Source of the DNA: an uncultured Lachnospiraceae bacterium
GTDB lineage: Bacteria; Bacillota; Clostridia; Lachnospirales; Lachnospiraceae
DNA: 36,697 bases
Reading direction: 5' to 3'
Assembly: GCA_947384285.1 (NCBI GenBank)
Contig: CANDGI010000030.1
Coordinates: forward strand, 1 to 36,697
Below the pieces are notes generated by a model that had not been told where the DNA came from, did no database searches, and saw nothing but the letters and a program-made list of their open reading frames with translations. How positions within the stretch are numbered: the stretch's first letter is position 1; every line of letters begins with the position of its first letter. The position numbers were made by a program, and so were the translations under genes. This document shows positions 1-35,281 of this stretch, piece by piece.

Positions 1-213
1 CGCTCTCCAAATGCACCTTCCTGCTTCCCTCGGGTTCACTCTCCAAATACACCCTTATGCTTTCCTCAGGTCCGCTCTCCAAATGCACCTTCCTGCTTCC
101 CTCGGGTTCACTCTCCAAATACACCCTCATGCTTTCCTCAGGTCCGCTCTCCAAATACACCTTCCTGCTTCCCTCGGGTTTACTCTCCTGGTGCACTCGC
201 CTATTTTCAGCAA
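1..213 (-). repeat. In-frame 72-bp tandem repeat
   Basis: The DNA repeats with a 72-bp period (1-72, 73-144, 145 onward, the last copy decaying), and each unit is built from two related 36-bp halves. All copies stay in the frame of the large minus-strand gene, giving 24-residue units. The first two copies differ by one base, which suggests recent expansion. The array continues past the left edge, so copy number is unknown. Confidence 0.9.
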
Positions 214-2077
214 GTGGCAGCATCCCTTCCAGGAAATGGTTTCCTATACGAATATTCCCCTCCTTTGCCAAACGACCCTCCGGGAAGGTTTTTTCCTCCT
301 TTTCCAAACGGCCTTCCAGAAAAGTTTTTCCCTCTCCTACCAAATGTTTTCCCACGGGGACTTGGGGCATTGCACCTTGATTTTGAGCTTGATGCTCCTT
401 TTGTTCTGGATACTTTTTTTGTGCCGCATGAGTTAGCAATGCCTCTGCGCAATTCTGCAATTGGCGAATGGATATTTCTGATTCCGTAACCGGAAGGATA
501 TCTTGATAGCGCTCTACCATCTGCTTTTCCCTGAAAAAAATCTCCTGCCGCTGCTCTGCTAACAGCTGGGAAACCTCTTGCTCCAATTGGCTAAGGAGCG
601 TCCAAAAACTCTCCTTTTCCTCAGGAGATGGTTCATCCCTTTTCAAAGGCGCATCCAAAAAAAGCTTCTTTAGCAGCAGATGCACTTGAGGAACAGCCGC
701 TTCCCCTGGCACGGCTTGCTGGCTTGATTGCCGTTTTGCGTTCCCTAAGGGCTGGTTTGCTTTTCCTGGCGCTTCCCCTGGCACGGCTTGCTGTCCTGGC
801 AGCTGGACATCCACATCCGGCGCTTTTCCTGCTTCCTGGCTGGTTTCTTCTTTTTTTCCATCCAGCATATGCTCCCGGAAATAAAACCTTGCTCCCTCCA
901 AATATCTCTTCTGCACTTTATGGAACCTATTTTCAAATCTCCGGCACATCTCATAGCGGGACTGGTTTTGCTCCCCTGGCTCCAAATCCTGTACGCCCTC
1001 TTGCTTCTCACATATTTCCGCCACAATGGCAGGAAATTTTTCCCAAAAGGAACGCACCTCTTTTCCCTCCAGCTGCTCCAGCTGGCGCACCACTTCTTTT
1101 TTTGCATTTTTCCAAATGATGCCTGTCCGGAACCATCTTGTCTCCTCTTTTTCCAAATGCCGCTCTAAAAAAAGCACTCTCTGGTAAAATCTGCGAAATT
1201 CTTTCCGCCCAAAGCTTTCTGCCAGCAAAACCATACGCTGGCGAGAAAGGCGGGAATCCTGCCCTTTCTTCTGTTCCTCCAGGCGGCTTCCTTCCCAAGA
1301 GGCAGGAGCCTTATCCTGGAGCTGATGAATGGTTTCTCCCCGGCCTGGTTCCTTTCCGCCTTCCAACAGCATATTTTTTCCCATATCCTTTGGCGGGGCG
1401 GAAATCCACGTCTCTTTTTCCAGCCGCTTGCATATTTTTAAAAACTTTTCCTCCGTACAGTTTTGGATGTATTCTATGGCCCACTTCCGCTCCGACCAGA
1501 TTAAGACTTCCGACAAAAACTCATATTCCTTTTTCCCCGCAGATTGAAACAACATCTGCAAAAAATGCTTTCCCTCCTGCGCCAGCCATACGTTTGTAAA
1601 TTCCTCCAGCCCCAGGGAAAGCCCATGCGACGCCTGGTACCGCTCCTGCAGCTTTTGTATTTCCCCTTCCTCTTTTTCCCAGCTTTGATAACGCCGCTCC
1701 TGCTCTTTTGCCTGCTCTGTAACTGAAAGATACTGTTTCAAAGACCGGTACATTTGGAAATCCACCCTCTTTAACTGCTCCAGATAATAGTTGACCGTAT
1801 TGGAAACGCAATTGTTTACCACATGTCTGTCCACCAATATCTGGTTTCTCTCCAGATTGTTTTGCACAGTGGTATGGTTCAAGATAAGGCGTACCAAAAG
1901 CTGCACCTGCTTTGGCGGTTCCTGGGCTTCCCCGAAGGTGCCATTCAAGTAGGCCAGCGAAATGCGGTCGTAATTTTTCGAGGAAACCGGCACATACTTA
2001 TCCCATAAGCTTTGAAGGAATCCTGTCCTTATATGAAGCTGTATTTTTGGCCGAAACGGTTCAAACGTAGTTATCAT
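1..2077 (-). CDS. Large uncharacterised eCIS-cluster protein, 3' end outside window
   Basis: An uninterrupted minus-strand frame of about 692 codons runs from an ATG at 2077 off the left edge. The ATG lies one base after the stop of the second tube gene, so translation is probably coupled and the gene belongs to the injection-system operon. The N-terminus (MITTFEPFRPKIQLHIRTGF) resembles nothing I recognise. Residues about 100-450 are rich in E, K, Q and R with heptad-like stretches, suggesting coiled coils. A P/Q/G/A linker follows around residues 415-450 and contains the octamer QQAVPGEA twice. The last visible 70 residues are acidic tandem repeats alternating LES(E/G)PEGSRKV(H/Y) and LESGPEES(M/I)RVY. 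No LysM, PAAR or gp25 motif is visible. It might be a tape-measure, fibre, assembly or cargo-related protein, but position in the operon is the only evidence. Confidence 0.75.
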   Translation of the reverse strand, partial: MITTFEPFRPKIQLHIRTGFLQSLWDKYVPVSSKNYDRISLAYLNGTFGEAQEPPKQVQLLVRLILNHTTVQNNLERNQILVDRHVVNNCVSNTVNYYLEQLKRVDFQMYRSLKQYLSVTEQAKEQERRYQSWEKEEGEIQKLQERYQASHGLSLGLEEFTNVWLAQEGKHFLQMLFQSAGKKEYEFLSEVLIWSERKWAIEYIQNCTEEKFLKICKRLEKETWISAPPKDMGKNMLLEGGKEPGRGETIHQLQDKAPASWEGSRLEEQKKGQDSRLSRQRMVLLAESFGRKEFRRFYQRVLFLERHLEKEETRWFRTGIIWKNAKKEVVRQLEQLEGKEVRSFWEKFPAIVAEICEKQEGVQDLEPGEQNQSRYEMCRRFENRFHKVQKRYLEGARFYFREHMLDGKKEETSQEAGKAPDVDVQLPGQQAVPGEAPGKANQPLGNAKRQSSQQAVPGEAAVPQVHLLLKKLFLDAPLKRDEPSPEEKESFWTLLSQLEQEVSQLLAEQRQEIFFREKQMVERYQDILPVTESEISIRQLQNCAEALLTHAAQKKYPEQKEHQAQNQGAMPQVPVGKHLVGEGKTFLEGRLEKEEKTFPEGRLAKEGNIRIGNHFLEGMLPLAENRRVHQESKPEGSRKVYLESGPEESMRVYLESEPEGSRKVHLESGPEESIRVYLESEPEGSRKVHLES

Positions 2078-2078
2078 G

Positions 2079-2519
2079 TCACAATCCTATCTTATTGATG
2101 GTCTCATTTAATCCGGTATGGGAAATTTCCACCTTCTTAATCAGCAGGCCGCTGTCCAAGGCATCCAGCCCGTCAATCTCCCATTTGGTGACGATGCCCC
2201 AATCCGCCTCATAGGTGGCTGTAGGCACAAGGCCCTTTTCCGGCATAACCATAATCACGATCCCCATGCTCAGTTCGCTTCCTGCCGTCAATGTGGTTCG
2301 AAGAAGCTCTCCGCTGGCAATCCCATATTCCAGCACCAGCTTATCCATGGTCTGGCGGGGCTTGGGCAGATAATGGATTCTATCGTTGAGCCCTCCCTCC
2401 GCCACCGCCTCAAATTCCATAGTGGCAGAAATATTGGACACCTTGGAAAATCCCAAGGGCATTCCATTAAGTATCACTTTAAATTTTGCATGGGTTGCCA
2501 GATTGTCATGGATGTCCAT
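2079..2519 (-). CDS. eCIS inner tube protein (second copy, T4 gp19/Pvc1-like)
   Basis: This 146-residue protein belongs to the phage-tail tube family that builds the inner channel of contractile systems. Family-typical features are the start HDNLATHAKFKVILNGMPLG, an early FSKVSNIS segment, alternating beta strands, and the C-terminal KKVEISHTGLNETINKIGL. It is distinct in sequence from the other tube protein at 3233-3658. In known eCIS the second type usually forms the first ring on the baseplate or a hetero-oligomeric part of the tube; assigning it that role here is inference. The ATG is preceded by AAGGGGGAA at good spacing. Its stop is one base from the next gene's ATG. Confidence 0.85.
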   Translation of the reverse strand: MDIHDNLATHAKFKVILNGMPLGFSKVSNISATMEFEAVAEGGLNDRIHYLPKPRQTMDKLVLEYGIASGELLRTTLTAGSELSMGIVIMVMPEKGLVPTATYEADWGIVTKWEIDGLDALDSGLLIKKVEISHTGLNETINKIGL

Positions 2520-2590
2520 AATGCGTTCCCCCTTGTACCTTTCATGCCGCTGCTATCCTCAAATCATCCCGCATCGCCAGGCTCAGGATA

Positions 2591-2821
2591 TCATATGCGG
2601 AAAATATCATTTTCCGGCTCCTGATTTATTTTCCTGTTGATCCTGGATACCTCCTCACACCACAAAATCCGTTCCCTATGGCTCAGCTTCCAGATATTTT
2701 CCCGGCTCCAGTGCAGATAATACGCGATAAACGACGTCTCTTCGTATATTTTTTCCGCCGGATATACTTCTATGGCCCGGCTTCCATAAAATTTACCGGC
2801 ACTTCCACCTCTTCCCCGCAA
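2591..2821 (-). CDS. DUF6760-like small eCIS protein
   Basis: A basic protein of up to 76 residues whose core (YPAEKIYEETSFIAYYLHWS, then HRERILWCEEVSRIN) matches the short helical family I know as DUF6760, which occurs next to tube genes in eCIS clusters. Its function is unknown. The frame overlaps the upstream gene by 52 bp if the TTG at 2821 is used. No convincing Shine-Dalgarno precedes that TTG, and no ATG or GTG occurs before the conserved core, so the start is uncertain. Translation is probably coupled to the upstream gene, and the first ~18 residues may not be real. Confidence 0.7.
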   Translation of the reverse strand: MRGRGGSAGKFYGSRAIEVYPAEKIYEETSFIAYYLHWSRENIWKLSHRERILWCEEVSRINRKINQEPENDIFRI

Positions 2822-3138
2822 TGGGGGCAGACAGTGCGGTACACTGGAATCTCCACCTGGTTGATCCTCTGGTAAAAATCCTGCAGAAATGCCAGGTCGG
2901 TGGTATAAAGCCCTTCCACCACCCTGGTATCCACTGTGGGCATCTCCCCCAGGCTGGTAATCACCCGGGAGAGCAGGATGATTGTCAAATACCCTGGATT
3001 CTGCTGCACCCTGGGATCTCTCAATGGGATAATCTCATCCGCCGCAGTGGCCAGGCGCATCTTCCCCTCCCGGTGAAGGCTGCCGTTCCGATCCACATAC
3101 CCTTTGGGCAGTACAAATGAAAATTCTGTCTCAAACAT
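2770..3138 (-). CDS. T4_baseplate/gp26-like tail assembly protein
   Basis: A 122-residue protein with the segment IPLRDPRVQQNPGYLTIILL, then RVITSLGEMP and DLAFLQDFYQRIN. This is typical of the small tail-assembly/baseplate chaperone family (Pfam T4_baseplate) found between tube and baseplate genes in contractile systems. The C-terminus carries a single CPHCGE knuckle, which could bind metal if paired in an oligomer. The ATG at 3138 has the strong site AAGGAGGAGCGG just upstream. The gene lies between the first tube gene and the DUF6760-like gene, the order expected for eCIS. The family is recognised from memory of its motif, so the call is moderately sure. Confidence 0.7.
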   Translation of the reverse strand: MFETEFSFVLPKGYVDRNGSLHREGKMRLATAADEIIPLRDPRVQQNPGYLTIILLSRVITSLGEMPTVDTRVVEGLYTTDLAFLQDFYQRINQVEIPVYRTVCPHCGEEVEVPVNFMEAGP

Positions 3139-3233
3139 CCGCTCCTCCTTCTACTGGCACATACGGCCTATCCTGCGATGTCTGCCGCTGCAGCATTTTC
3201 CAGTGGAACGCACAGCCGCAGCGGCATTTTCAT
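3131..3233 (-). pseudogene. Possible small Cys-rich ORF with a 1-nt frameshift
   Basis: The gap between the first tube gene and the T4_baseplate-like gene contains an ATG that overlaps the tube stop (TGATG). After ATG-AAA, removing one A from the AAAA run (3227-3230) opens a 33-residue frame beginning MKCRCGCAFHWK and ending at a TGA that overlaps the next gene's ATG. Both ends are therefore perfectly coupled to neighbours and the product would have a CxCxC knuckle. As written, the ATG frame instead ends after 21 codons. This could be a sequencing error, a real mutation, programmed slippage or coincidence. Confidence 0.3.
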
Positions 3234-3658
3234 CAAGATACCCTGGTCATGCCCTCATGGGCGATTTCCATGGATTCAATGGCGATTTCGGAGGAGGTGG
3301 CGTTGAAATCCGGCGCAGTATATTTGGTAGGCCACGCGTTGATGACCTGCCAGGAAGCGGCAGCGGTTTCCGTCTCATCTAAAATGGTAATGGTGATGGT
3401 TTTCCGTTCCACTTCCCCCTCCACGCCTGCGATCATCCATTCATACATCACCATGGAATCCGCCACGCCCTGCTTCAAGGTAATGTTCCCATATTTTTTC
3501 AAGCCTGGAATTTTCATGGGCGTCTGCACCATATCCCCTTCCCGGTATTCGATTACATCAATGGATGCGTCAAACCCGGAAGCTTCCGAGAAGCCGCCAG
3601 CCTCCAGGCCATCAATCTCAACTTTATATCTAAACTTTCCATGTGGATAAGTAGCCAT
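3233..3658 (-). CDS. eCIS inner tube protein (first copy, T4 gp19/Pvc1-like)
   Basis: A 141-residue tail-tube family protein. The N-terminus YPHGKFRYKVEIDGLEAGGF followed by SEASGFDASIDVIEYREG is the signature of eCIS and phage-tail tube subunits, and the C-terminus (EIAIESMEIAHEGMTRV) closes the beta barrel. It would stack into the hexameric channel inside the sheath. The gene follows the sheath gene by 21 bp, with AAAGGAG upstream of its ATG, the canonical sheath-tube order. It is the likely main tube subunit because it is directly paired with the sheath. Confidence 0.9.
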   Translation of the reverse strand: MATYPHGKFRYKVEIDGLEAGGFSEASGFDASIDVIEYREGDMVQTPMKIPGLKKYGNITLKQGVADSMVMYEWMIAGVEGEVERKTITITILDETETAAASWQVINAWPTKYTAPDFNATSSEIAIESMEIAHEGMTRVS

Positions 3659-3679
3659 TTTTCCCTAAGCTCCTTTCTG

Positions 3680-5419
3680 TTATTCAATGGAATCACTTGT
3701 TTTCTGGGAAATTCTAAAGATTACAAATTCAGCCGGCTTTACTGGCGCGATGCCAATCACGCAGACCAGCCTGCCGTTATCGATGTCATCCTGGCTCATG
3801 GTATTGCGCCCCACATTTACAAAAAATGCCTCCGAGGGCGCAGATCCAGCCAGGGCCCCTGTCCGCCATAAACCAGTCAGAAATACGTCGATGGTACGCT
3901 TTACGCGAACCCAGAGCACCTCATCGTTGGGTTCAAATACCGCCCAGTTGGTATTCGCCTTAATACTCTCCTCAATAAAAATAAACAGCCTGCGGACGTT
4001 AATATATTTCCAGCTTGGGTCGCTGCTGGCTGTCCTTGCCCCCCAGACGCGGATTCCCTGTCCCGGAAAAGTGCGGATTAAATTCACTCCCTTTGGATTT
4101 AAGATATCCTGCTCCCCTTTGTTAAACTGGCAGTCAAGCCCCACGCAAGCCCGGACGGTCTCATTTGCCGGAGCCTTATGTACGCCTCTTGCAGTATCGC
4201 TTCTGGCATAGATTCCAATCATGGAGCCCGATGGGGGAATGGCAATATTCTTCTTATCCAATGGGTCGAACACCTCAAGCCAGGGATGGTACATGGCCGC
4301 GTAATTGCTGTCCACGATATCCCTGTGAGCTGCGATATCATCAATTTTCCTGGCGTCCCTGGGCATATCCAGCACTGCAAAACGGCTGGCTAAGTTTTCA
4401 CAATGAGCCACCAGCATCAACTGTACATTGGGATCCGTCACCCCGGGAACCGCCATAATCGACACATTGTCGTTATCAAGAAAAGACTGGATGCCTGTCC
4501 GTTTTCCAGCGCCGTTATCCGTGCCGATATAATCTGCCGCGCTGATATTGGACACGGAGCCGTTGCTGCCATGCTTTAAATGAATCACACAGAGCGCCTT
4601 ATTGGGATCCTCCCCAGCAATCTCATCGAAAGGCGCCGCAGCTTCGGCAGCAGGCCGGCCGATATAGCGCACAGAGACCAAATCTGATTTCGCCGTTTTC
4701 TTTTCCACATAATTGGGAATGGAAATGTTGAAGGACAGGTTCTCATAAAATTCCACAATATCGTCGTATTTCACTTCCAGGTTAAATTCACAGGTGGAAA
4801 TCACTTTGGTGGGGAGAAGGTTCTTATCCACCACATCCTCCTCAAATTCTTTTTCAAAGGTAATAATATTGTCCTGGCTTTTTACGACCCGGTTGTAAAC
4901 CACAGAGGTCATATCCTGGTACATGACCACATCCCCCGCATGAAAGCCTGCGGAATTCTTTACCGAATAGCGCTTTCCATCCGCCGTCTGCAGTTCCTCC
5001 AAAATCTGCGTTTTTGCCTTGCTGGAGGGGGTGGCCGCAATGCTCATATTGTCGCCCCACAGCCCCGGATTTTTCGCCTCAATCTTTAGCACCGGGTTCT
5101 CCGCCGGAGCCACTGCCCGGGAACATTTCGCATCGGATGGCGCTACCCTGGACACAAAGCAGCGGGCACCGCCGTTTACGAAGAAATGCTCCACCGCATA
5201 TGCCAGGAAACGGTATTCCCCATACTCATTTTCTGACAGGTATCCGCCGTATTTCCGCTTAAAGTCCGCAAAATTTGTTACAAGCTGGGGAACGCCCTCC
5301 GCAGGCCCCCGCTCTGCAAGGCCGATAAACCCTGCCGTGCTGGTTCCAACACCCTCCATGGGCTTTCCGCCCGAATCAAATTCTTCCACATATACTCCTG
5401 GTGATAAATATTCCGCCAT
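3680..5419 (-). CDS. Contractile tail sheath protein (Pvc2/Afp-like)
   Basis: This 579-residue protein starts with AEYLSPGVYVEEFDSGGKP and then TAGFIGLAERGP, the diagnostic N-terminal strand and first domain of eCIS and phage sheath subunits. The C-terminal third carries the conserved WGARTASSDPSWKYINVRRL and FIEESIK blocks and ends with VNVGRNTMSQDDIDNGRL and APVKPAEFVIFRISQ, the handshake strands that link neighbouring subunits. The middle portion (about residues 110-300) is the variable surface domain. The length is normal for a single-sheath system. It would contract to drive the tube through a target membrane. A candidate promoter and a hairpin-containing ribosome-binding region precede it, so it may start a separately expressed structural unit. 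Confidence 0.95.
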   Translation of the reverse strand: MAEYLSPGVYVEEFDSGGKPMEGVGTSTAGFIGLAERGPAEGVPQLVTNFADFKRKYGGYLSENEYGEYRFLAYAVEHFFVNGGARCFVSRVAPSDAKCSRAVAPAENPVLKIEAKNPGLWGDNMSIAATPSSKAKTQILEELQTADGKRYSVKNSAGFHAGDVVMYQDMTSVVYNRVVKSQDNIITFEKEFEEDVVDKNLLPTKVISTCEFNLEVKYDDIVEFYENLSFNISIPNYVEKKTAKSDLVSVRYIGRPAAEAAAPFDEIAGEDPNKALCVIHLKHGSNGSVSNISAADYIGTDNGAGKRTGIQSFLDNDNVSIMAVPGVTDPNVQLMLVAHCENLASRFAVLDMPRDARKIDDIAAHRDIVDSNYAAMYHPWLEVFDPLDKKNIAIPPSGSMIGIYARSDTARGVHKAPANETVRACVGLDCQFNKGEQDILNPKGVNLIRTFPGQGIRVWGARTASSDPSWKYINVRRLFIFIEESIKANTNWAVFEPNDEVLWVRVKRTIDVFLTGLWRTGALAGSAPSEAFFVNVGRNTMSQDDIDNGRLVCVIGIAPVKPAEFVIFRISQKTSDSIE

Positions 5420-5466
5420 ATTCTTCCGGCATCTATTCCTTGGTGCAGATGCCGGCTGCCTCCTTT
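5420..5466 (-). promoter_or_regulatory. Hairpin-bridged ribosome-binding site of the sheath gene
   Basis: On the minus strand a strong AAAGGAGG lies at 5466-5459, 39 bases before the ATG, too far for normal use. Between them is a perfect 9-bp stem (CCGGCATCT at 5455-5447 with AGATGCCGG at 5434-5426) closing a 12-base loop. When folded, only 3 + 6 = 9 unpaired bases separate the Shine-Dalgarno from the ATG, an ideal spacing. A weaker GGAAG 3 bases before the ATG is the alternative. Confidence 0.6.
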
Positions 5467-5502
5467 CCCGTCAGCTGTATTTTTCCTGCTACTGATAAAG
5501 TT

Positions 5503-5537
5503 ATTATAAAAGAAAGCACTAAACAGTTTTATAAACA
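5503..5537 (-). promoter_or_regulatory. Candidate activator-dependent promoter of the sheath operon
   Basis: The minus strand has a perfect -10 box, TATAAT (5508-5503), in an AT-rich stretch, but no acceptable -35 at normal spacing. Just upstream are two TGTTTA direct repeats (5525-5520 and 5537-5532) 12 bp apart. A good -10, a missing -35 and direct repeats about one helical turn apart is the layout used by SARP-type activators, one of which is encoded upstream. Assigning that regulator to this site is inference. Confidence 0.4.
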
Positions 5538-5607
5538 CAAAAGTTTTTTAGGAGAAATTCTTCTGAGCGGGGAACGGAAGTCCTCCTATTGCGCGGGTGG
5601 AAATTTC

Positions 5608-6462
5608 TTACTTTTTTGCGGCTTCTTCCTCTTCTCTACTTTCTTCTGCCAGCCTACCCTGCTTTCCTTTTCCTTCCTCCTCGCTATTCTGCTTTCCTTC
5701 CTCCGCACCATTCCGCTTTCCTTTTCCTTCCTCCTCGCTATTCTGCTTTCCTTTACTTTCCTCCTCGCTATTCTGCTTTCCTTCCTCCGCACCATTCTGC
5801 TTTCCTTTTCCTTCTGCTTCTTGCAGAAGAAAAGAATTGTGTCTGCCGGATATGGAATCAGATGTTTTTCTTTTTTTCCGTTGTTCTTTCTCCCTGTCAA
5901 TCATTAGCTGCAGTTCTCCGCACATTTGCCGCTCCTTGGCTTCTTTTTTTCGAATGCGGCTTTCTACTATTTCCAAATCGTGGTTTAAGGAGCAGAATTC
6001 TTCCAGGGAAAGCTGCCCTCTCTGCTCCTTCATAAGTTCCCGCTTTTCTCCACGCTCCGGCCCTTGGTCCAGAAAGCCAAAGGCTTCCTCCAAGGTACGG
6101 TGTCCATATTCTTTCATCATATCCTTGATGCACTGCAGAAATTCCTGGCTCCGCTCCCATTCCGTTACCTGGTAGAAAATAGCCTGGTTTCGAAAAGGCG
6201 CCCCGGAAGCATACAAAAAACGCTCCCGCTTCATTTTTACCTTCTTCACCTTATCCAGCTCCAGATGCTTTTCCTTTTCTCTGTGCAGCGGCGTCCCTGG
6301 GGATTCCTTGGCCTTCATCACAAACCCTTTCTTCTCCTTCCCCTTTCTTTCCTCCTTCACATATTCCATTTTTCCAAATACATTCTCCTGCCAGAAACCC
6401 TCCCTGCTCTCCTTGTGCAGCAATGACTGCCCCTTTTCCCATCTGGGCTGCTTTCTCTCCAT
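5608..6462 (-). CDS. Uncharacterised eCIS-cluster protein with charged C-terminal repeats
   Basis: A 284-residue hydrophilic protein lying between the AAA+ ATPase and the sheath genes. The first ~200 residues are Lys/Glu/Arg rich with helical, probably coiled-coil segments (for example around residues 90-200, with the stretch LYASGAPFRNQAIFYQVTEW). From about residue 215 it is low-complexity, built from short variants of NSEEEGKGKQ and NGAEEGKQ, ending in an acidic tail. I recognise no domain, signal peptide or membrane segment. The ATG at 6462 is preceded by GGAGG at 7-base spacing. Its place in the cluster suggests a role in assembly, in cargo, or as a partner of the ATPase, but nothing in the sequence decides this. 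Confidence 0.75.
   Translation of the reverse strand: MERKQPRWEKGQSLLHKESREGFWQENVFGKMEYVKEERKGKEKKGFVMKAKESPGTPLHREKEKHLELDKVKKVKMKRERFLYASGAPFRNQAIFYQVTEWERSQEFLQCIKDMMKEYGHRTLEEAFGFLDQGPERGEKRELMKEQRGQLSLEEFCSLNHDLEIVESRIRKKEAKERQMCGELQLMIDREKEQRKKRKTSDSISGRHNSFLLQEAEGKGKQNGAEEGKQNSEEESKGKQNSEEEGKGKRNGAEEGKQNSEEEGKGKQGRLAEESREEEEAAKK
5655..5816 (-). repeat. Short in-frame repeats in the charged tail
   Basis: The + strand reads as imperfect repeats of cttcctcctcgctattctg, ctttcc and cttcctccgcaccatt modules of about 24-30 bp. They keep the minus-strand coding frame and encode the alternating EEGKQNSEEE and GKGKQNG units. Two modules recur in almost identical order, suggesting duplication by slippage. 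Confidence 0.8.
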
Positions 6463-6544
6463 CCCTCTGCCTCCACTGTCCCGTCTACATCCCTCTTCCT
6501 AAAATCCTTCCCCCATCTACATTAAGAAACATGAATGCACCGAC

Positions 6545-8497
6545 TTAACCCAAAGACTGGTTCACTCTAGGCCAATATTCCCCATAGTCTTCCCGCCCAA
6601 GCTTCCGCCCGCTTTTTTCCATCTCGTGGGCAAGCCCCAAAAGCGCCATATCCATCGTCAATATCTGCTCCTGGGATTCCGCTGCAAGAAAGCTCCCATA
6701 GAGCAGCGCATTCTTGATTACGCTCCCAGTCACCTCAAACTGCTTTCCCAAAAAATGGTAATCCATATCCTCCGACACTGGCAGACGGGGCGGAACCATG
6801 GTGCGCCACATCCTTTCCCGGGACTGGGCATCCGGCATGGGAAAATCTACAATATCGCTGATTCTCCTGCGGAAGGCTTCATCAAAATTCTGGAGGTAAT
6901 TGGTGGCAAGGATGCTGGCTCCTTCGTATTCCTCCATTTTCTGCAGCAAAAAGGCCACCTCCATATTGCTGTACCTGTCATTGGATTCCTTAATCTCTGT
7001 GCGCTTGCCAAACAGCACGTCCGCTTCGTCAAAAAACAGAATTGCCATGCTCTTTTGCGCTTCTTCAAAAATACGGTTCAGCTTTTTTTCCATCTCCCCA
7101 ATGTATTTGTCCACTACCGACGGAAGTTCCACCCGGTACAGCTCCATCCCCAGAGCCGATGCCATGGCCTGGGCCGCCATAGTTTTCCCTGTTCCCGGCG
7201 GGCCTGCAAAAACCATCGATACTCCGTTTCCGTAAGGCGACTTTGCCAGAAATCCCCACTCCTCATAGACATGCTTATGGTTTTTTACCCTGTTTATGAT
7301 ATGGAACAGCTTTTCCTTCTGCACCGCTGGAAGAATCAAATCCTCCATGGTATAAACCCCCTCAACCTTTTTTGCATATTTTTGCAGGGAATGGCCGCCC
7401 CACTGGAGCACCGCCCGTCTCAAATCCTGCCCCAGGATGCCTTCTCGCCCATCGCTTCTGGCATAAGCTTTTCCCAGCTCCAGCATGCCCCGCAGCTTCC
7501 CAGGCAGAAAGGCATAGCGGTTCAAAAATTCCACCCTGTCCTCCTGGCTCTCCCAGAGATACTCCCCCGTCATCTCCCAATACATCTTTTTATCCTTTAA
7601 CACTTCCTGAAACGGGATGGCAAAGGACAAATATTGCCGCTCTTTTCCTGCAAAAAAAGCATATTCTTCCTCTTCCCCTAGAAAAAATACCGTCTCCTCC
7701 CCCTCCATCCAATCCAAAAGTTCCAGCGCCCCTTCCGCCCCCTCCTTTGGCAGCTCTATCGCCAAAAGGCCGTGGCGCAGCAGACGCTCCAGCATAATCT
7801 CCTGCAAATGCCCGGGGGACTCCAACGCTTCATACCGGGCAACGATAAGCCCTTTTCCCTGCTCTGCCGCCAAATAGGCATAATTCAGCTTTCGCCCGCT
7901 CCCCTTCCTGCCATGCAGGCAGCATACCTTCTTTCCCTGCGCCTGCCGGATGCACTGGCTGATCCTTGGATGCACTTTTGCCCGGTCTCCCAGATAAGGC
8001 AGCTGACCGCCGCTATGGGAATACCAATACATCCCCGGTATCTTTTGCTCCAAAAGGATGCCCTTGGATAAAAAGAGAAACACTCTCTCCTTCATCCGTA
8101 CAAAGGTTTTTCCTATTTCTCTGCCCTGCTCCCACTGGAATAGCAGCGGATTTGCCTGGTAAAAGAGTTCATCAGCGAAATCCCCCCTTCCGTTCCAAAA
8201 CCCTTCCCAGAAAGAAAGGGAAAACCCTTCCCCCTGTTTCAGGCCTGATTGGGCGGCGCGGATTTCCCAGTAAAGAACCGCCGCCAAAAACAAGGCTTCC
8301 CCCCGTCCAAGCCCTGCCCCCAAAACAACATAAAGGAATGGGGAAAACACTCCTCGCCCCACTCCTTCTTCCCCTCGCTTCCACAAAGCGTCAAAGGCTT
8401 TCTGCAAATCCCATCCTTCCGTTTTCCCCAAGACAGCTTTATCGCCCCAGGCTGCCAGCTCCTTCAAAAAGGCCTGGTAGCTTTTATATCCTTCCAT
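6545..8497 (-). CDS. eCIS-type AAA+ ATPase (Pvc15/Afp15-like)
   Basis: A 650-residue protein with a long N-terminal region and a single C-terminal AAA+ module. Walker A is GPPGTGKT near residue 430, Walker B is ILFFDEADVLFGKR near 490, sensor 1 is ILATNYLQNFD followed by the arginine finger segment AFRRRISD near 535, and sensor 2 lies in the C-terminal helices. This layout matches the ATPase present in nearly all eCIS clusters, which is thought to help assemble or load the particle. A TTG four codons upstream (8509) is also possible, but the ATG at 8497 begins the conserved part, with GGGGTGG close before it. The start overlaps a duplicated 22-bp sequence and a short upstream ORF. Confidence 0.9.
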   Translation of the reverse strand: MEGYKSYQAFLKELAAWGDKAVLGKTEGWDLQKAFDALWKRGEEGVGRGVFSPFLYVVLGAGLGRGEALFLAAVLYWEIRAAQSGLKQGEGFSLSFWEGFWNGRGDFADELFYQANPLLFQWEQGREIGKTFVRMKERVFLFLSKGILLEQKIPGMYWYSHSGGQLPYLGDRAKVHPRISQCIRQAQGKKVCCLHGRKGSGRKLNYAYLAAEQGKGLIVARYEALESPGHLQEIMLERLLRHGLLAIELPKEGAEGALELLDWMEGEETVFFLGEEEEYAFFAGKERQYLSFAIPFQEVLKDKKMYWEMTGEYLWESQEDRVEFLNRYAFLPGKLRGMLELGKAYARSDGREGILGQDLRRAVLQWGGHSLQKYAKKVEGVYTMEDLILPAVQKEKLFHIINRVKNHKHVYEEWGFLAKSPYGNGVSMVFAGPPGTGKTMAAQAMASALGMELYRVELPSVVDKYIGEMEKKLNRIFEEAQKSMAILFFDEADVLFGKRTEIKESNDRYSNMEVAFLLQKMEEYEGASILATNYLQNFDEAFRRRISDIVDFPMPDAQSRERMWRTMVPPRLPVSEDMDYHFLGKQFEVTGSVIKNALLYGSFLAAESQEQILTMDMALLGLAHEMEKSGRKLGREDYGEYWPRVNQSLG

Positions 8498-8570
8498 TTT
8501 CCACCCCAAAAAGCTGCCTTATGGCAAGCGTGTTCATACGCCATCTCCTATATCCTTCCATTTTCCACCC
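8485..8570 (-). repeat. 22-bp direct repeat duplicating the ATPase start region
   Basis: The same 22 bp (ending, on the minus strand, in GGTGGAAAATGGAAGG then ATATA) occurs at 8485-8506, over the ATPase start codon, and at 8549-8570, just after the SARP-like gene's stop. The upstream copy supplies an ATG with the same context. From it a 25-codon ORF (8561-8484) runs through the true start and stops 11 bases after it begins. It could act as a translational decoy or coupler. Confidence 0.8.
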
Positions 8571-8577
8571 TCCGAAA

Positions 8578-11283
8578 TCAGCACACCAGCTCCTGAAACG
8601 ATTTTCCAAAATCCAATTCCAAATCTTCTTTGTATAATTTTACCATACGGTCATACTGCTCTCTGGCCTCCTTCTGCTTTCCGCTATGGTAAAGGCAGGC
8701 AATCAAGTTCCTCACCGTCTCCTCGTCATACGGATCCACCTCCTGCATCCTCTGCAAGAAGGGAATCGCCCGCTCCCCCTTATTTTCCTGCATCTGTTTT
8801 TCCGCTTCTGCCTTACAGGCCAAAAGATACTCCTCCTCCAGCTTCCGGGCTGTCCCATACGCCCACAGATATCCCATCTCTTCCATATACCCGCCCTGGT
8901 AGAGCTGCATCATACGGCCCGGATCCCCCTTTTTTTCTTTGCACTCCCCGATGCATCTTTCCAGCTCCTCCAGCTCGGAAGAAACCATCCCCATATTTAA
9001 CGAATATTTTTTCTTCTCATAGACAATCAGATTTTCCCACCCCTCCTGGGTAAAAATCTGGCGGATGCTGTAGAGGGTAGTGTGGAACAAAGCTGTCGCG
9101 CTTTTGGCTCCGGTTTCCGGCCACAGGAGAGCAATCAGCTCTTCCCTGGCAACGCCCTCCCCCTGCAGATGGAACAGATAGGCAAACAGCTCCTGAGCCT
9201 TTTTCGTCCGCCACATCACTTCCTCTTTTTCCTTTAGGAGCACGCGAAAACGCTTCATACACCGAATCTGTATCTGTTTTCCATTTTCCAGCTTCAGCGC
9301 GGCAGCTTCCCGTTCTGCCGCTAGAGGCGCGATCGGCTCCTGTACATGCTTGTGGAGAAAATCAATCTCCTCAAAAATATGCTGATGCTTCCTGGCAAAG
9401 TCCTTGAGCTGAATCTGGTTTTTATGTAAAAACCGATCTCCCACGCCGGCCTGGTCCACTGCTTTCCGATAATTTTTCCGGTTCCAGGACAAGACCGCCA
9501 GCATTTTCCAGGCCACCGCCGTATGCAGCGTCTCATACTCCGCATTCTGGATAATCTGCTGCGCGCATTGATACACCTCTGCAAAATCTGCCGCCTGGTA
9601 CGCCGCTGCGAGCTGCTCCGACAGCATACAGTTTTGAAGCAAAAATCCATCCTCCATCTCATAAAAGCTGGTTTTTTCTTCCAAAAGCCCTCCTGAAAAA
9701 AGCACCCGGTCCGCCGCAGACAAGAACGTGCCCTCCCGAAAATAAGCGCCCGCTCTCTTCCAGCCGGCAAGGCTTTCCTTGGCCTCCTGCACCTTTTGAA
9801 GGCAGCAATCATATTTAATGCGCTCCGTGCAGGCCTCCTCAGCCAGAGCGCCCCATTCCTTTTCGGAGATTTGCTCCGCCTGCTCCAAACACTGCCCCGA
9901 ACGCTTTAGATTCCCCTCCTTCCTCTCTGCCACTGCCGCAAACAAAAGCGCCTTCTTATACTCCTTCTTTTTTCCCGCTTTCCAGAAAGCATTTGCCGCC
10001 TCCATCAGTTCTTTCCTGGCCTTTTCCTTCTCTCCGCAGATCCACAGATATTTCCCATAGACAAACTTAGATTTGGGGGTTAAGCTGCAATCCTGGCTGT
10101 GCAGAAATCCAAACCACCGTTCTAAGGTATCATACAGCCTTTCCTTTAGGATTCCCTCGCCAGCCACCTCAAGAACAGCCTGCACCACTTCCGGGGCGCA
10201 TCCTCTGCACCCATATTCTGCCGCCTGCACCTTATCCTCTGTTTTCAAAAAATAATATGCCGCTTTCCTCAAGGATTCCATCTGTTCCTCCCTGGACAGC
10301 CTGGATAAAAGGAAGCGCTGGAAAATGGAGTGGTAGCGGTAGATGCCGCTCCCCTCCCCCAGGCTCTGCACAAACAATTTTTCCCTGGAGAGATATTTCA
10401 GCATGCTTTTTGACTGGTAGTTCCCCAGGATATAATTGCATGCCGGCGCCGTCATATAATCCAAAACAGCTGTTTTTTCCAAAAATGTCTGGATATCATA
10501 AGGAAGCATTTTATAAACCCTTGTGGTTAGATAGTCCGATACCTCCAGCTTTTCGCAGATTCCACGCACTGCCTTAAGCGTCATCTTCCCTCGCTGCCTG
10601 CGCATCTGCTGAATAATCTGAACGACTCCCACCGGCCATCCTTCCGTATAAAAATAAATCAACTCCGCAGCCTGCAGAAAAAGCCGGCCATCCTCCATTT
10701 CCCCCAAAAGCAGTCCGATCTCCGTAAGGCCGAATTTCAAATCTTCCATCCCAATGCAGGACGCGCGCCCCTGCGCTGCATATTCTTCCAGCATATCCGG
10801 CAAAGACCGCATTTCCACAATAAAAAAACGGAGTTTTTCACTCATGGTTTCAATCAGAACGTCCAAAAGATTGAAAATATCTGGATTGTGGATTTCTTGA
10901 AAATCATCCAGGATAATATTCATCCTCTCCACCTGCTCATCCAGCCATACCACCAAACGCTCCACCAGAACATCCAAATTCTCCGAAAGCGGTGCAAAAT
11001 CCTGGAAGCTTAGCTTCTCCTTCCCCAGCGCTTTTTCCACCGCTCTTGTCAGATTCCTTACAAACGACATCAGTTCATTATCCGTCTCGCTTAAGCTGTA
11101 CCACGCGCTTCTTTCCTTGCAGCTGCTTACATAATGCGCCAATATCTGGGTTTTTCCATAACCTGCCCCTGCGTTTAGCAATACGACCCGTTCCTCTAAG
11201 GAGTGCAAAAGCTGGTCTGCCCTCCGTTCCACGTATTCCCGCTCCACGTCAGGTATCTGTATTTTATCGTTTTTGTTCCTCAT
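8578..11283 (-). CDS. Giant ATPase regulator with SARP/BTAD-like C-terminus
   Basis: This 901-residue protein combines three parts. Residues 1-300 form a MalT-like NTPase with Walker A GAGYGKTQ near residue 40 and Walker B IILDDFQEI near 140. Residues 330-640 look like TPR/helical repeats, a typical sensing region. Residues 665-900 are a winged-helix DNA-binding unit (KRFRVLLKEKEEVMWRTKKA, then FHTTLYSIRQIF) followed by a BTAD-type helical domain ending in YDEETVRNLIACLYHSGKQ and YDRMVKLYKEDLELDFG. Proteins of this design activate transcription after ligand and ATP binding. It sits directly between the small PqqD-like gene (14 bp away) and the ATPase gene, so it is probably the pathway activator of the injection system. 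The signal sensed is unknown. Confidence 0.85.
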   Translation of the reverse strand: MRNKNDKIQIPDVEREYVERRADQLLHSLEERVVLLNAGAGYGKTQILAHYVSSCKERSAWYSLSETDNELMSFVRNLTRAVEKALGKEKLSFQDFAPLSENLDVLVERLVVWLDEQVERMNIILDDFQEIHNPDIFNLLDVLIETMSEKLRFFIVEMRSLPDMLEEYAAQGRASCIGMEDLKFGLTEIGLLLGEMEDGRLFLQAAELIYFYTEGWPVGVVQIIQQMRRQRGKMTLKAVRGICEKLEVSDYLTTRVYKMLPYDIQTFLEKTAVLDYMTAPACNYILGNYQSKSMLKYLSREKLFVQSLGEGSGIYRYHSIFQRFLLSRLSREEQMESLRKAAYYFLKTEDKVQAAEYGCRGCAPEVVQAVLEVAGEGILKERLYDTLERWFGFLHSQDCSLTPKSKFVYGKYLWICGEKEKARKELMEAANAFWKAGKKKEYKKALLFAAVAERKEGNLKRSGQCLEQAEQISEKEWGALAEEACTERIKYDCCLQKVQEAKESLAGWKRAGAYFREGTFLSAADRVLFSGGLLEEKTSFYEMEDGFLLQNCMLSEQLAAAYQAADFAEVYQCAQQIIQNAEYETLHTAVAWKMLAVLSWNRKNYRKAVDQAGVGDRFLHKNQIQLKDFARKHQHIFEEIDFLHKHVQEPIAPLAAEREAAALKLENGKQIQIRCMKRFRVLLKEKEEVMWRTKKAQELFAYLFHLQGEGVAREELIALLWPETGAKSATALFHTTLYSIRQIFTQEGWENLIVYEKKKYSLNMGMVSSELEELERCIGECKEKKGDPGRMMQLYQGGYMEEMGYLWAYGTARKLEEEYLLACKAEAEKQMQENKGERAIPFLQRMQEVDPYDEETVRNLIACLYHSGKQKEAREQYDRMVKLYKEDLELDFGKSFQELVC

Positions 11284-11297
11284 AGCATCACTGCCCC

Positions 11298-11567
11298 CTA
11301 CGGATCTATCAGGGAGTTTTCCTGGGACACGCCAATAAAATCCATATAATCCACCATAAATTGTGCCAGCAGAAAGCCTGCCACAACCTCATCCGTCCCA
11401 TTTCTTTCCACCAGGCAGCGTATCATCTCATTATTCTCACAGATTCCTTGTTCCATGATTTCCATAATCCGGCAATCTTCCTTTGCCACATACATGCTTT
11501 CCTCCTGGTTTCTCAAAATCCATTCCCCGTTCTCTTTTTTGACTGTCACGCCTTCCCTCCACCGCAT
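11298..11567 (-). CDS. Small PqqD-like protein between the two regulators
   Basis: An 89-residue protein whose pattern (hydrophobic strands, then RIMEIMEQGICENNEMIRCL and an amphipathic helix FLLAQFMVDYMDFIG) resembles the winged-helix fold of PqqD-type peptide-binding proteins. No PQQ or radical-SAM gene is nearby, so it is more likely a small regulator or adaptor for one of its neighbours. It begins 15 bp after the LuxR-type regulator gene and ends 14 bp before the SARP-like gene, with AAAGGGG upstream of its ATG, so the three genes form one transcription unit. The family call is tentative; the coding call is firm because of spacing and frame. Confidence 0.5.
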   Translation of the reverse strand: MRWREGVTVKKENGEWILRNQEESMYVAKEDCRIMEIMEQGICENNEMIRCLVERNGTDEVVAGFLLAQFMVDYMDFIGVSQENSLIDP

Positions 11568-11582
11568 AATCCCCGTCCCCTT

Positions 11583-13964
11583 TCACAACTCCAGCAGAGA
11601 GGCTTTCCGCTCAGCATCCTGCCTGTTTTTTACGCCTAGTTTCTTATAGATGTTTTTTTTGTGGAATTTCAAGCTGTTGTAAGTAATCCCACATCTTTCG
11701 CAAATCTCCTTTGTGGAAATCCCCTGACAGAGGAGCTTTAATATTCCTAACTCTTTTTCCGTAAAGATTTCCGTCCGCACAAGCTCTGTTTTTAAATAAT
11801 CTGGATAAAAATGCGCCATGCGGGCCGTCTCTTCTTTTACTTCCTTCAAAAAATCCGGGGAAATATTCCTGCTATCCTTCCCATCCCCTGCACCTGCAGC
11901 CCGCTGTTTTTCCCACAGGTCCAGCAGCGGCAGAACCGCCCCGCCTTCCTGCGCCACTACCCTTGTAAAATGAAAATATTCCGCTTTTTTCAATGCTCCC
12001 TCAAAGGCTTCCTCCCACAGCCTGCTTCCGGTGCGGTACAAAAACACCGCTTTCAAAAGCTGGTTTTCCATCCAATGGTAATGCCGCTCATATTCCGTAA
12101 AATACAGGTTCATCCGCTCAATCAGCCCTGCCGCCTCCTCATAGCGCGCCAATGCCAAAAGGCAGCGTATTTTCTGGATATAGCGGTAACGGTCCAGGGT
12201 GCAGAAAGCTTCTTTTTCATCCGGCGCAGTAAGAAGGTATTTTTCCGCCGCCTCCTGATCGCCCTGCAGCAGGGACAGCCACACAGCCAGGGCGTCCATG
12301 TTCTGGAACAGCTGCACCGCGCCTTCGTTCTCCGCTTTCCGCCGGATGCTGGCCAGTGTGCTCTTGGCCACCCCAAGCTGCCCACGGAACAGATGATATT
12401 TCACCAAAACCCCGGAGGCCGCAAAACTCATCTCGATTTTTCCTCCTGCATCCGCCATCATGGAGCCTGTATTCAACCTGGTCTGCACCTCGTAATCACT
12501 CATAGTATTCTTTTCAAATCCGCTTTCTGCCAGGGCGATATTCACAAGGCCTTTCCCGTGCGCCCCCAAAACAGCCTCCACCGGCTTTTTCATAACAGCC
12601 GCCAGCTCCTTATCGATCCTGCTCCATTCGCAAAAATCCAGCCCACCGTTCATAATGGAAGGAAGGTTGCTGGTCACAGAAAATTCCGGCATTTTCATTT
12701 CCCTGTTCATCACCATAACCGCGGCATTTTTCAAAATGCCAATAATGCCGTGGATTCCCCGGTGGGGAATGGCGATATCCAGGTAGCACAGCCAGGTCCT
12801 GGCTCTTTTGCGCTGGGCGTTTGACAGGTGCTTTTTCTTGCTGTACTGCAATAACTCCTGATACCACTCCTCCGATTCCTCTTTCTGCAGCATAATGGAA
12901 TAAAGCATGCACATGCCGTACATCAGCTCCGGGCTGCTCAAAATTTCCTCCCGGGGAAGGGAAAGGTAAAAACGCCTGGTCTCAAAAAAATGGGCGACTC
13001 CCGCATGCTTTTGTGCATTTTTCAAAAGCATCTGGGAAATCTTATGAGCGTCCCCTACCTTTTCATAATATTCCAACGCCAGGTCAATCTGCCCCTGCCT
13101 TTCATAATACCGGGCCGCCTCCCTGTAATTTGACAGGCAATCTTCTTTACTGTACAAAAAAGACTGTTTCCACAGCAAGAAGCTTCTCAAAAAAGGCCGC
13201 ATGACCCAGGTTCCATCCTCATTTAGAAAAAGAAAATCCCCGACATTACGGGCATCCTCCAAAATCTGGACAATATTTTCTTTTAAGGTAAGCATCCCAG
13301 CCATCTCTATGGTAAAAGACGGAAATGCACACAGGGCAAGCATCACTTCCTGGATATCACTGTCCCAGTGTTCCCAAAAGGCCGTCTCGGAATAAAAAAA
13401 CAGTTCCAAACGAACAACCTCCCACAGCTTCCCGTCCAGGGGATCTCCGCTTTCCATGTGCCGAAGCATAAATTTTAATGCCACCACATGGCCTTTTGCA
13501 TGTTTTTTTAGAAATTCTACCTCTCCCCTGGTCAGGGTAAATCCAGACTGGGAAAACAACGTCCTGATTTCCCGTTCGCCAAACTGGAAATCACGCACTC
13601 CGCACCGAAAGAAATTCAGTTTCAGATCCACCTCGATCAGCCAGCTAGGCATAGGCCCCCGGCTGATTAAAATAATCTGCCTGCCCCCCTGCAGGCACAG
13701 CTGCCGGACATATTCCCTGGCGTCTTCTTCTGATGCCCATTGCAGGTCGTCTACCACCACCACGTCATCCTTTAATTCCTCCAGCGGAGGTAAATCCCTG
13801 TGCATTTCTGGATGACAGTGAATCGTAAGGTGCTTCTTCCTGCGCAAAAAGTATTCTACCGCCGCTGTCTTTCCACATCCTGCCACACCATACATATATA
13901 AATTTCTATCTTCTGACAGCTTCAGCTTTGACTGAACCGCTGGAACCTTCACGTATTCTGACAT
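11583..13964 (-). CDS. MalT/LuxR-type ATPase transcription regulator
   Basis: A 793-residue regulator. Walker A (GVAGCGKT, residues 26-33) and Walker B (VVVVDDLQWA, about 67-76) define the N-terminal NTPase. The middle holds helical repeats, and residues about 732-793 form a LuxR helix-turn-helix (FTEKELGILKLLCQGISTKE, then YNSLKFHKKNIYKKLGVKNR). The start at 13964 is chosen because GGGAGGAAG precedes it by 5 bases; an extension to a GTG at 14117 has no such site and encodes an unlike, non-conserved N-terminus. It is the first gene of the minus-strand cluster and probably senses a signal and drives the downstream regulators and injection-system genes. Confidence 0.85.
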   Translation of the reverse strand: MSEYVKVPAVQSKLKLSEDRNLYMYGVAGCGKTAAVEYFLRRKKHLTIHCHPEMHRDLPPLEELKDDVVVVDDLQWASEEDAREYVRQLCLQGGRQIILISRGPMPSWLIEVDLKLNFFRCGVRDFQFGEREIRTLFSQSGFTLTRGEVEFLKKHAKGHVVALKFMLRHMESGDPLDGKLWEVVRLELFFYSETAFWEHWDSDIQEVMLALCAFPSFTIEMAGMLTLKENIVQILEDARNVGDFLFLNEDGTWVMRPFLRSFLLWKQSFLYSKEDCLSNYREAARYYERQGQIDLALEYYEKVGDAHKISQMLLKNAQKHAGVAHFFETRRFYLSLPREEILSSPELMYGMCMLYSIMLQKEESEEWYQELLQYSKKKHLSNAQRKRARTWLCYLDIAIPHRGIHGIIGILKNAAVMVMNREMKMPEFSVTSNLPSIMNGGLDFCEWSRIDKELAAVMKKPVEAVLGAHGKGLVNIALAESGFEKNTMSDYEVQTRLNTGSMMADAGGKIEMSFAASGVLVKYHLFRGQLGVAKSTLASIRRKAENEGAVQLFQNMDALAVWLSLLQGDQEAAEKYLLTAPDEKEAFCTLDRYRYIQKIRCLLALARYEEAAGLIERMNLYFTEYERHYHWMENQLLKAVFLYRTGSRLWEEAFEGALKKAEYFHFTRVVAQEGGAVLPLLDLWEKQRAAGAGDGKDSRNISPDFLKEVKEETARMAHFYPDYLKTELVRTEIFTEKELGILKLLCQGISTKEICERCGITYNSLKFHKKNIYKKLGVKNRQDAERKASLLEL

Positions 13965-14138
13965 GCTCTTCCTCCCTGTACTCTCTTTTGTAGATTTTAC
14001 CTCAAAACAATGATTTTGTGACCTACCCTTGGGGGTAGTTTGCCTGTTTTTTTCTTCCAGCAGGGATACCAGGCGCCTGTTGTCTGTATGGATATGATAT
14101 TTAACCGCCTTGTACACTGCAAAAGCTGCTATAATAAA

Positions 14139-28645: not shown

Positions 28646-28714
28646 TTAATGAAATGCCCCTCCCTCTGATCCGGGGGCAAATCGCCGGAAGGCATTCCGA
28701 ATAATGCTTTGCAT
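28646..28714 (-). CDS. 22-residue ORF before the DUF4190-like gene
   Basis: ATG at 28714 is preceded by GATAGGAGGAAGGCTG, one of the best ribosome-binding sites in the region, and opens a 22-codon frame (begins MQSIIRNAFRRFAPG) that stops at 28646, directly before the next gene's AAGGAGG. The product is basic and has no known relative. It may be a real micropeptide or a device coupling translation of the two larger genes. Confidence 0.45.
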   Translation of the reverse strand: MQSIIRNAFRRFAPGSEGGAFH

Positions 28715-28746
28715 CAGCCTTCCTCCTATCAAACTAAGTCATTCTT

Positions 28747-33439: not shown

Positions 33440-33524
33440 GAAAATACCTCCTGCTGAGGACTCCGTTTCAACCGTCCGTCTTCTGCTTATCGAAAAGCCT
33501 CGGAATCTTTTTCTACTGCTTCTT

Positions 33525-33533
33525 ATCATATCA
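33525..33533 (-). promoter_or_regulatory. Extended -10 promoter of the kinase-like gene
   Basis: TGATATGAT on the minus strand (33533-33525) is an extended -10 element. The -35 region (TGGAAA at 17 bp) is weak, as is usual for this type. The leader is about 80 bases. Confidence 0.55.
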
Positions 33534-33608
33534 CAATTGTCTGCTCATTTCCATGAAACTTTTCTTATTTTCCGCCTGACCTTTTTTCTTTAGGAATTCC
33601 AAACACGA

Positions 33609-33806
33609 CTTATATCTTTCGATATACAAAAAAAGCAGAATGGCCCTTTGGATAAGCAAACCATTCATGGGCGTTCCTAGCACTGCAGCGGAACGTTTTA
33701 TATTTGGATGCAGACGGAAAGGCAGAATGGCCCTTTGCCGCGCAAACCGGGCAACGTTTGCTTAGCCAAAGAGCCATTCTGCCTTTCCTGTATATCGAAA
33801 TATGGA
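33609..33806. repeat. Palindromic intergenic element, compound copy 2
   Basis: GCAGAATGGCCCTTTG occurs directly twice (33635-33650 and 33722-33737) and once, nearly, in inverse (33766-33782). The outer ends TTTCGATATACA and TGTATATCGAAA are inverted repeats. Head motifs GGGCAACG, CCCATGAAT (inverted here) and GTTTGCTTA are shared with the element at 14949-15058. The arrangement suggests two elements head-to-head, one partly deleted. It fills the interval between the MATE gene and the kinase-like gene together with the hairpin at 33824-33894. Confidence 0.7.
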
Positions 33807-33823
33807 TTGAGCGCTGTGGTGTT

Positions 33824-33894
33824 ATTACTCCGGCGGTTAAATATCGACGTTTTTACTTGCTTAAATTTCGTCAACATTTAACCGCCGGAGTAAT
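33824..33894. repeat. 19-bp perfect inverted repeat
   Basis: ATTACTCCGGCGGTTAAAT (33824-33842) and its exact complement (33876-33894); with two mismatches the arms reach 26 bp around a 19-base T-rich loop. It begins just after the MATE stop codon on the minus strand, so it may terminate that transcript, although there is no U tract. Confidence 0.8.
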
Positions 33895-33905
33895 AGTATT
33901 AAATA

Positions 33906-35237: not shown

Positions 35238-35281
35238 AAGTTTTTCCTCCAATCACCTTGCATTTTCTTCCTGTATCAAGC

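Follow-up and report, generated by a model that had tools for sequence, protein, structure and literature searches.

Candidate operators suggest a serial MalT-to-SARP switch before a contractile injection locus of an uncultured Lachnospiraceae bacterium

What controls a contractile injection machine whose genes are headed by two different large regulators? The question is raised by DNA of an uncultured Lachnospiraceae bacterium, in which a MalT/LuxR-type regulator, a small protein and a SARP-type regulator precede the genes of an extracellular contractile injection system (eCIS). The stretch analyzed, hereafter the window, is the whole of contig C30 (36,697 bases) of genome G000 (3.23 Mb, 83% complete, 74 contigs). 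The genome lies in the same genus as Petralouisia muris, a Lachnospiraceae member, as expected from the host type proposed by an earlier reading made from the sequence alone (the sequence-only reading). It has been reported that BTAD and GerE are shell domains of eCIS and likely regulators, and that GerE genes adjoin 25.8% of eCIS loci (Geller et al. 2021, PMC8213781); the parts of that report at hand call the signals for these genes unknown. In this study, we propose that the locus is probably under a serial switch of two regulators, in which the MalT-type protein would act on the SARP gene and the SARP-type protein on the sheath operon.

The cluster runs along the minus strand from position 13964 to position 1, from the MalT/LuxR-type regulator down to a large gene cut by the contig end. 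A DUF134/Nitro_FeMo-Co gene lies upstream on the plus strand, oriented away from the cluster; therefore, the cluster begins with MalT. In the proposed first tier, the MalT/LuxR-type protein would bind a palindrome at its own promoter, at about the classical position of a LuxR-type activator, and would drive, with autoregulation, an operon of MalT, the small protein, SARP, an ATPase and a 284 aa protein. In the second tier, the SARP-type protein would bind a direct repeat of two copies, which covers the -35 region of the sheath promoter, and would thereby turn on the structural operon. The assignment of protein to site is inferred, as are the signals and the part played by the small partner, and both regulators are presumed to be activators by analogy with their families.

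The first regulator (793 aa; 11583..13964, minus strand) has the make-up of a LAL/MalT-type protein. A P-loop N-terminus with the Walker A motif GVAGCGKT is followed by a TPR region (TPR_MalT, E 6.4e-12 to 7.1e-12) and a C-terminal GerE helix-turn-helix (E 1.5e-14 to 1.6e-14); AAA_16 was below its cut-off. This order of parts is that of Escherichia coli MalT. However, the MalT model was matched mainly in the C-terminal half, and the window protein reached 92 bits against the 537-bit cut-off of the MalT equivalog. The gene likely starts at the ATG at 13964 (MSEYVK...) rather than at the GTG at 14117, and the longer GTG open reading frame (ORF) would overlap the proposed MalT promoter.

This promoter carries a candidate MalT-type operator. 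Upstream of the gene (13994..14038, minus strand) we found the palindrome CTACCC-N4-GGGTAG, with CCAA as its spacer, and a -10 box, TAAAAT, 23 nt further on. By our own arithmetic, its center lies near -43, which we take to be the class II position of LuxR-type activators. A general promoter and terminator scan gave about the same frequency as in shuffled sequences and was not used. A palindrome stood before the MalT homologue in 11 of 22 loci, with a score that no more than 1 of 200 shuffles attained, and its distance to the -10 box was 23 nt in 10 of these 11 loci, 24 in L163, and 23 in the borderline loci L271 and L272. Allowing up to three mismatches, a scan of the window returned only the site at the MalT promoter and its own reverse reading. 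The palindrome also tracked the DNA-reading helix, being present with 11 of 15 homologues with K/R-[FY] and 0 of 6 with K-K, in a comparison of 21 of the 22 loci (G135 left out) that were grouped by eye after the fact. These results suggest that the palindrome is read by the MalT-type protein.

We investigated the distribution of this regulator. Of 397 family genomes, 40 (G000 among them) carried MalT homologues (E ≤ 1e-100), and full-length homologues occurred in 8 of 28 other genomes of the genus, the copy in G174 being interrupted. A MalT match and a sheath shared one contig in only two of the 397 genomes, the window's genome and G336, and no close MalT copy was found in 80 named eCIS loci. 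Seven further MalT-bearing genomes (G080, G129, G202, G235, G304, G358 and G407) have a sheath on other contigs, and contig fragmentation could mask a link in them. Among the regions read around MalT homologues (10 genus stretches and 20 loci), a sheath was present only at G336, and MalT as a general eCIS regulator was rejected. As judged from gene neighborhoods, the MalT module is not generally tied to eCIS. Two candidate operators, together with comparative genomics, support the LuxR-over-SARP hierarchy of the two-tier switch proposed in the sequence-only reading, but the MalT-type regulator is not generally bound to eCIS. Large LuxR-type (GerE) regulators near a sheath without SARP were seen in an Oscillospiraceae locus and a Clostridia metagenome-assembled genome (L102:7-2382 and L129:2-2218), and these genes are only distant relatives of the window MalT type. 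The genome also contains a MalT-like fragment (59% over about 71 aa; G000:C25:3118-3683) with a one-mismatch MalT box directly before it.

This distribution bears on the alternative that MalT and the small protein are hitch-hikers that act on other targets, and that SARP, transcribed from a promoter of its own, controls the eCIS without them. In favor of this alternative, many genomes carry MalT, often together with the small partner, in the absence of an eCIS, and in six close eCIS loci of the genus the SARP-ATPase-284 aa operon points away from the sheath and has no adjacent MalT. However, the gaps within the head of the window are only 15 and 14 bp, and the co-directional head is repeated in a second genus. 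In G336, the whole head is present, with 73% identity over 793 aa for MalT, 63% over 89 aa for the small protein, 65% for SARP, 58% for the ATPase and 92% for the sheath. Recurrence of the regulator, small protein and regulator trio beside eCIS was thus found in one other genome. The window and G336 group in a single clade in the trees of SARP (98/99), the ATPase (93/96) and the sheath (88/86), although in the SARP tree the composition of the window's sequence was flagged. The two belong to different genera, and therefore the headed form represents one lineage of the locus, which may have moved between genera.

The gene order in the window and G336 links MalT to SARP in cis, and a second link was found in trans. 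The MalT homologue lies elsewhere in the genome in G175 and in the nearly identical G174, and in both a MalT box points at the SARP gene in the intergenic region between SARP and sheath (C5:59768-59812 in G175; 0 of 5000 shuffles). Among the six close genus loci, the box was present in the two with a full-length MalT in the genome and in none of the four without, and in 32 scanned SARP upstream regions it was found only in G174 and G175. The MalT box before the SARP gene in these genomes speaks against the hitch-hiker alternative, which we regard as unlikely.

The second regulator (901 aa; 8578..11283, minus strand) joins a MalT-like NTPase N-terminus to a C-terminal winged helix-turn-helix and a BTAD domain (E 1.6e-15, residues 793-899). 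In a profile search, its N-terminus aligned to MalT (8bob) and its C-terminus to AfsR (8hvr) and EmbR (2fez); therefore, the output part is C-terminal, and the N-terminal DNA-binding part of AfsR/PimR is not found in the window protein. Trans_reg_C was matched in homologues from L070 and L237 and not in the window protein at E 0.01. No SARP homologue was found outside the window in G000. In contrast to MalT, SARP keeps close company with the sheath. Among the five best non-self matches in 150 family genomes, the SARP gene adjoins or is one gene off the sheath in G056, G106, G054 and G076, and in the fifth, G016, it is on the sheath contig about 6.4 kb away. In the 80 named loci, which were fetched by sheath and scored for an ORF matching the SARP output profile, SARP occurred in 17, all within the best-ranked 29 (L057-L085), that is, in 17 of the 24 of these with at least 4 kb upstream. 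It occurred in 0 of 41 such loci among the remaining 51, a group that is mostly, not wholly, more distant (sheath identity 72% in L133 and 69% in L089). SARP and sheath were separated by 0-2 genes in the 16 of 17 loci measured. From these neighborhoods, the SARP gene is judged to belong to this eCIS type.

The sheath promoter carries the candidate SARP operator and its -10 box at 5503..5537 on the minus strand (TGTTTATAAAACTGTTTAGTGCTTTCTTTTATAAT), that is, TGTTTAT-N5-TGTTTAG, ten nucleotides and TATAAT. Across genera, the element is TTGTTNAG, with a period of 11 or 12 bp and located ten nucleotides 5' of the -10 box. This form bears on the alternative that both regulators act jointly at the sheath promoter, as partners or a heteromer, rather than in series. 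Both are MalT-like with an NTPase part and might co-assemble. However, no palindrome lies before the window's sheath (best consensus match 9/12, with 3/6 complementary), and the conserved element there is a direct repeat, so that joint action appears improbable and the serial order is preferred.

We compared loci with and without SARP, "with SARP" meaning a SARP ORF anywhere in the stretch examined. The strict repeat was present in 20 of 33 SARP loci and in 1 of 61 loci without a SARP ORF, after dropping upstream stretches shorter than 150 bases and keeping duplicates, as recognized by contigs of the same length (L057/L238, L065/L248 and L082/L251, with L237/L240 near-identical). With at least 4 kb upstream, the counts were 20/33 and 0/49. 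Shuffles gave 0 matches in 30 x 94. In the lone SARP-less carrier, L249 (G393), the contig ends 1.5 kb upstream of the sheath and a SARP match lies on another contig. The strict form was used after a looser search had met other repeats in some SARP-less loci (e.g. L074, L078 and L080); its bases were chosen after viewing the sequences, and therefore the contrast is descriptive. When a relaxed genus pattern was searched with up to 2 mismatches allowed, each of the 9 genomes returned a single site, which was a perfect match located 84-125 bp upstream of the sheath match, and the reversed control returned none. These results make the direct repeat a candidate SARP operator, as we infer from its position and distribution.

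The repeat could alternatively be a feature of the sheath promoter kept by descent and read by a factor other than SARP. Consistent with this, the repeat-bearing loci are Lachnospiraceae or Clostridia, and the contrast was computed without removing relatedness. However, the flanks diverge by eye, whereas the repeat is kept along with its spacing and its distance to the -10 box, and it is absent from eight related SARP-less loci with at least 4 kb upstream (L061, L064, L072, L073, L075, L081, L082 and L251, where L082 and L251 are one contig). The geometry is also near that of SARP sites described in the parts of PMC5930380 at hand. In the portions of the literature available to us, SARP heptamers classically recur every 11 bp, usually over the -35 region (PMC5930380, PMC10972967), and spacers of 4-15 nt are on record (PMC10972967). 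A different reader of the repeat is therefore very unlikely, and SARP remains the preferred one.

Several observations weigh against the serial switch. For the first tier, 11 of the 22 MalT loci have no significant palindrome, and the MalT pattern (≤2 mismatches) was rarer than its reversed control, which was not split by mismatches, in every one of the 10 genomes searched; we therefore propose no wider regulon. The sequences of G174 and G175 are almost the same at this place, and thus the trans link counts as one independent case; moreover, the MalT homologue of G174 is interrupted by another ORF. Four of the six close genus loci have neither a full-length MalT nor the palindrome, so that the first tier is dispensable there. 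For the second tier, the window and G336 fail the strict repeat and match the relaxed genus pattern, while the strict form, its bases picked after looking, is absent from 13 of 33 SARP loci. The period of the repeat is 12 bp in this clade, compared to the classical 11, which is found in some genera.

How does this arrangement relate to known systems? It resembles the eCIS described in the available parts of Geller et al. (PMC8213781) in having an eCIS operon with adjacent LuxR-type (GerE) or BTAD regulator genes. It differs in that both regulators and a small third protein are in one operon, and that candidate operators suggest serial action, where those parts give no operator and no cascade. 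GerE and BTAD beside eCIS are therefore already described, and the regulatory head, which the sequence-only reading had thought possibly undescribed, looks so only as a combination and a cascade. Among the open PMC titles and beginnings of abstracts listed, none concerned a SARP operator of an eCIS or a LuxR-over-SARP eCIS cascade. The nearest published hierarchy that we met is PimR-PimM of the Streptomyces natalensis pimaricin cluster (PMC5930380). As far as the parts of that paper at hand describe it, it shares a hierarchy of SARP-type and LuxR-type regulators, direct repeats as the SARP site and a unique target gene. However, its order is opposite, with PimR (SARP-LAL) over PimM (PAS-LuxR), whereas here the LuxR-type protein would stand above SARP; the SARP output here is C-terminal, the target an injection machine and the host a member of Bacillota. 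With two short candidate operators of fixed geometry, the regulation of a gut eCIS type becomes directly testable.

The small partner (89 aa; 11298..11567, minus strand) lies between the two regulators. Its relatives follow MalT homologues directly 3' in 8 of 20 other loci, G336 counted (seven by tblastn, and G275 by position and alignment). Elsewhere, MalT and the small protein neighbor a clostripain-family protein (G080) and a protein with a weak, below-cut-off match to an adhesive domain (G380), and other neighbors of the module look secreted by eye. The protein had no Pfam match at E ≤ 1, no NCBIfam match and no relevant match in PDB; the best hit of a PDB profile search with its family was a chaperonin (E 0.24), and none of nine scanned family members matched PqqD in Pfam at E ≤ 1. 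The PqqD/RRE fold consists of three strands followed by three helices. AlphaFold2 without an alignment gave the order E-E-E-H-H-H in a low-confidence model (mean pLDDT 53.5). Thus, the PqqD-like label given earlier was unconfirmed by Pfam, NCBIfam, PDB profile search and single-sequence fold. We consider it speculative, and quite unlikely, that MalT and this partner form a portable signal-sensing plug-in of Lachnospiraceae, in which the partner would be a peptide- or ligand-binding gating subunit with a PqqD/RRE-like fold. If true, such a plug-in before a SARP with a single genomic target would tie gut eCIS deployment to an extracellular or peptide signal, which elsewhere in the family would control surface proteins and proteases.

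Is the controlled machine an eCIS? The sheath, both tubes, DUF6760 protein, AAA+ ATPase and both regulators noted earlier on one strand were all matched by profile searches. The sheath protein (579 aa; 3680..5419) matches Phage_sheath_1C (E 3.2e-20) and Phage_sheath_1 (E 1.8e-18). Inner tube protein 1 (3233..3658) matches Phage_T4_gp19 (PF06841, E 6.8e-44) and is CIS5/CIS1-like below the curated cut-off, and inner tube protein 2 (2079..2519) matches PF06841 at E 5.4e-11. The DUF6760 protein (76 aa; 2591..2821) was found at E 4.9e-14. The AAA+ ATPase of eCIS type (654 aa with a TTG start as listed; 6545..8509) matches PF00004 at E 5.7e-29, and many of the 80 named loci have a homologue of it close to the sheath. 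A tail-assembly-chaperone-like protein (122 aa; 2770..3138) has a CxxC pair and relatives 3' of the sheath in many named loci; it had been called T4_baseplate-like, but it has no such Pfam match at E 0.01 and matches phrog_508 instead (E 2.3e-5). The 284 aa protein 3' of the ATPase gene (5608..6462) had no match in the Pfam scan; related proteins are encoded in the G336 locus, in G056 and in the six close loci of the genus. All of these genes are on the minus strand.

The last gene on that strand encodes the N-terminal part of a large, charged, repeat-rich protein (2..2077) and is truncated at the contig end. It probably continues at the end of contig C20, with 98% identity over 59 aa inside the repeat stretch. 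Tandem repeats of about a dozen residues were seen by eye at the contig end (window 1-500 and the end of C20) and may have caused the assembly break. From its end, C20 encodes CIS_tube, a YqbQ/GPD-like hub, the spike (Phage_base_V), gp25, two Baseplate_J proteins and a tail I-like protein, and further an unmatched 585 aa protein, a 286 aa protein resembling kinases, a protein with MORN repeats and Pvc16_N. The genes from CIS_tube to Pvc16 have relatives with 56-84% identity on a single G336 contig. Therefore, the locus is an eCIS, as the sequence-only reading had claimed, and the genes that it had proposed to look for past the left edge (gp25, Baseplate_J, tail I and spike) are on C20. C20 most likely adjoins the window and carries the remainder of the eCIS, on the basis of the 59 aa overlap and the homologues of the whole gene set on one contig in G336. 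The locus most likely yields a contractile injection particle.

C20 also carries a Mor-family activator, a Mu-like protease (PF10123) and a Mu-like major head protein (PF10124) at C20:29206-30961, about 23 kb beyond the window edge if C20 adjoins. On one side of these genes are the 3' eCIS genes, and on the other is a second AAA+ ATPase of eCIS type (C20:24844-27084; L051). Capsid, portal or terminase genes would have spoken for a phage; no portal or terminase was found among the ORFs scanned, which are part of those of C20, but the Mu-like head genes are there. Relatives of the head and protease were not found in the other eCIS loci examined, most of which end about 10 kb after the sheath. 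Although the Mu-like protease, head and Mor genes would fit a locus belonging to a prophage, or a phage-tail bacteriocin derived from an ordinary prophage, such an origin is extremely implausible in view of CIS_tube, Pvc16_N, DUF6760 and the eCIS-type AAA ATPase in one cluster and the homologous clusters in many Lachnospiraceae. A viral contig search with query P0004 found no relative, and a plasmid search with query P0003 gave 244 records, none of which reached 60% identity or covered 80% of the query. In a PADLOC scan the ATPases resembled IetA-type profiles, a resemblance that we regard as usual among AAA proteins.

A matching sheath (E ≤ 1e-20) was found in 44 of 397 Lachnospiraceae genomes. 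This contrasts with the Bacteroidota-centered picture of a 2025 metagenome survey (PMC12210884), in the available parts of which human-gut contractile injection systems are predominantly Bacteroidota; its main text does not contain Lachnospir-, Firmicutes, Bacillota or Clostridi-. The genome holds a second contractile system (G000:C2:59639-87697; L003, L004), with a sheath 53-55% identical, tubes, Baseplate_J and MORN-like genes, and beside it two response regulators, one OmpR-type and one LytTR-type. At C20:33565-42707 (L051, L054), MORN-repeat, kinase-like and HAMP proteins with membrane parts by eye have relatives in G056, G106 or G336, and such proteins could point to an envelope-linked or signaling eCIS. 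Elsewhere in the window, we found a GA-cis RNA (RF02987, 47.3 bits) at 28646-28730 on the minus strand and, at 32165-36473, a protein of the APH-family phosphotransferase fold, a MatE transporter and a recombinase zinc-ribbon fragment.

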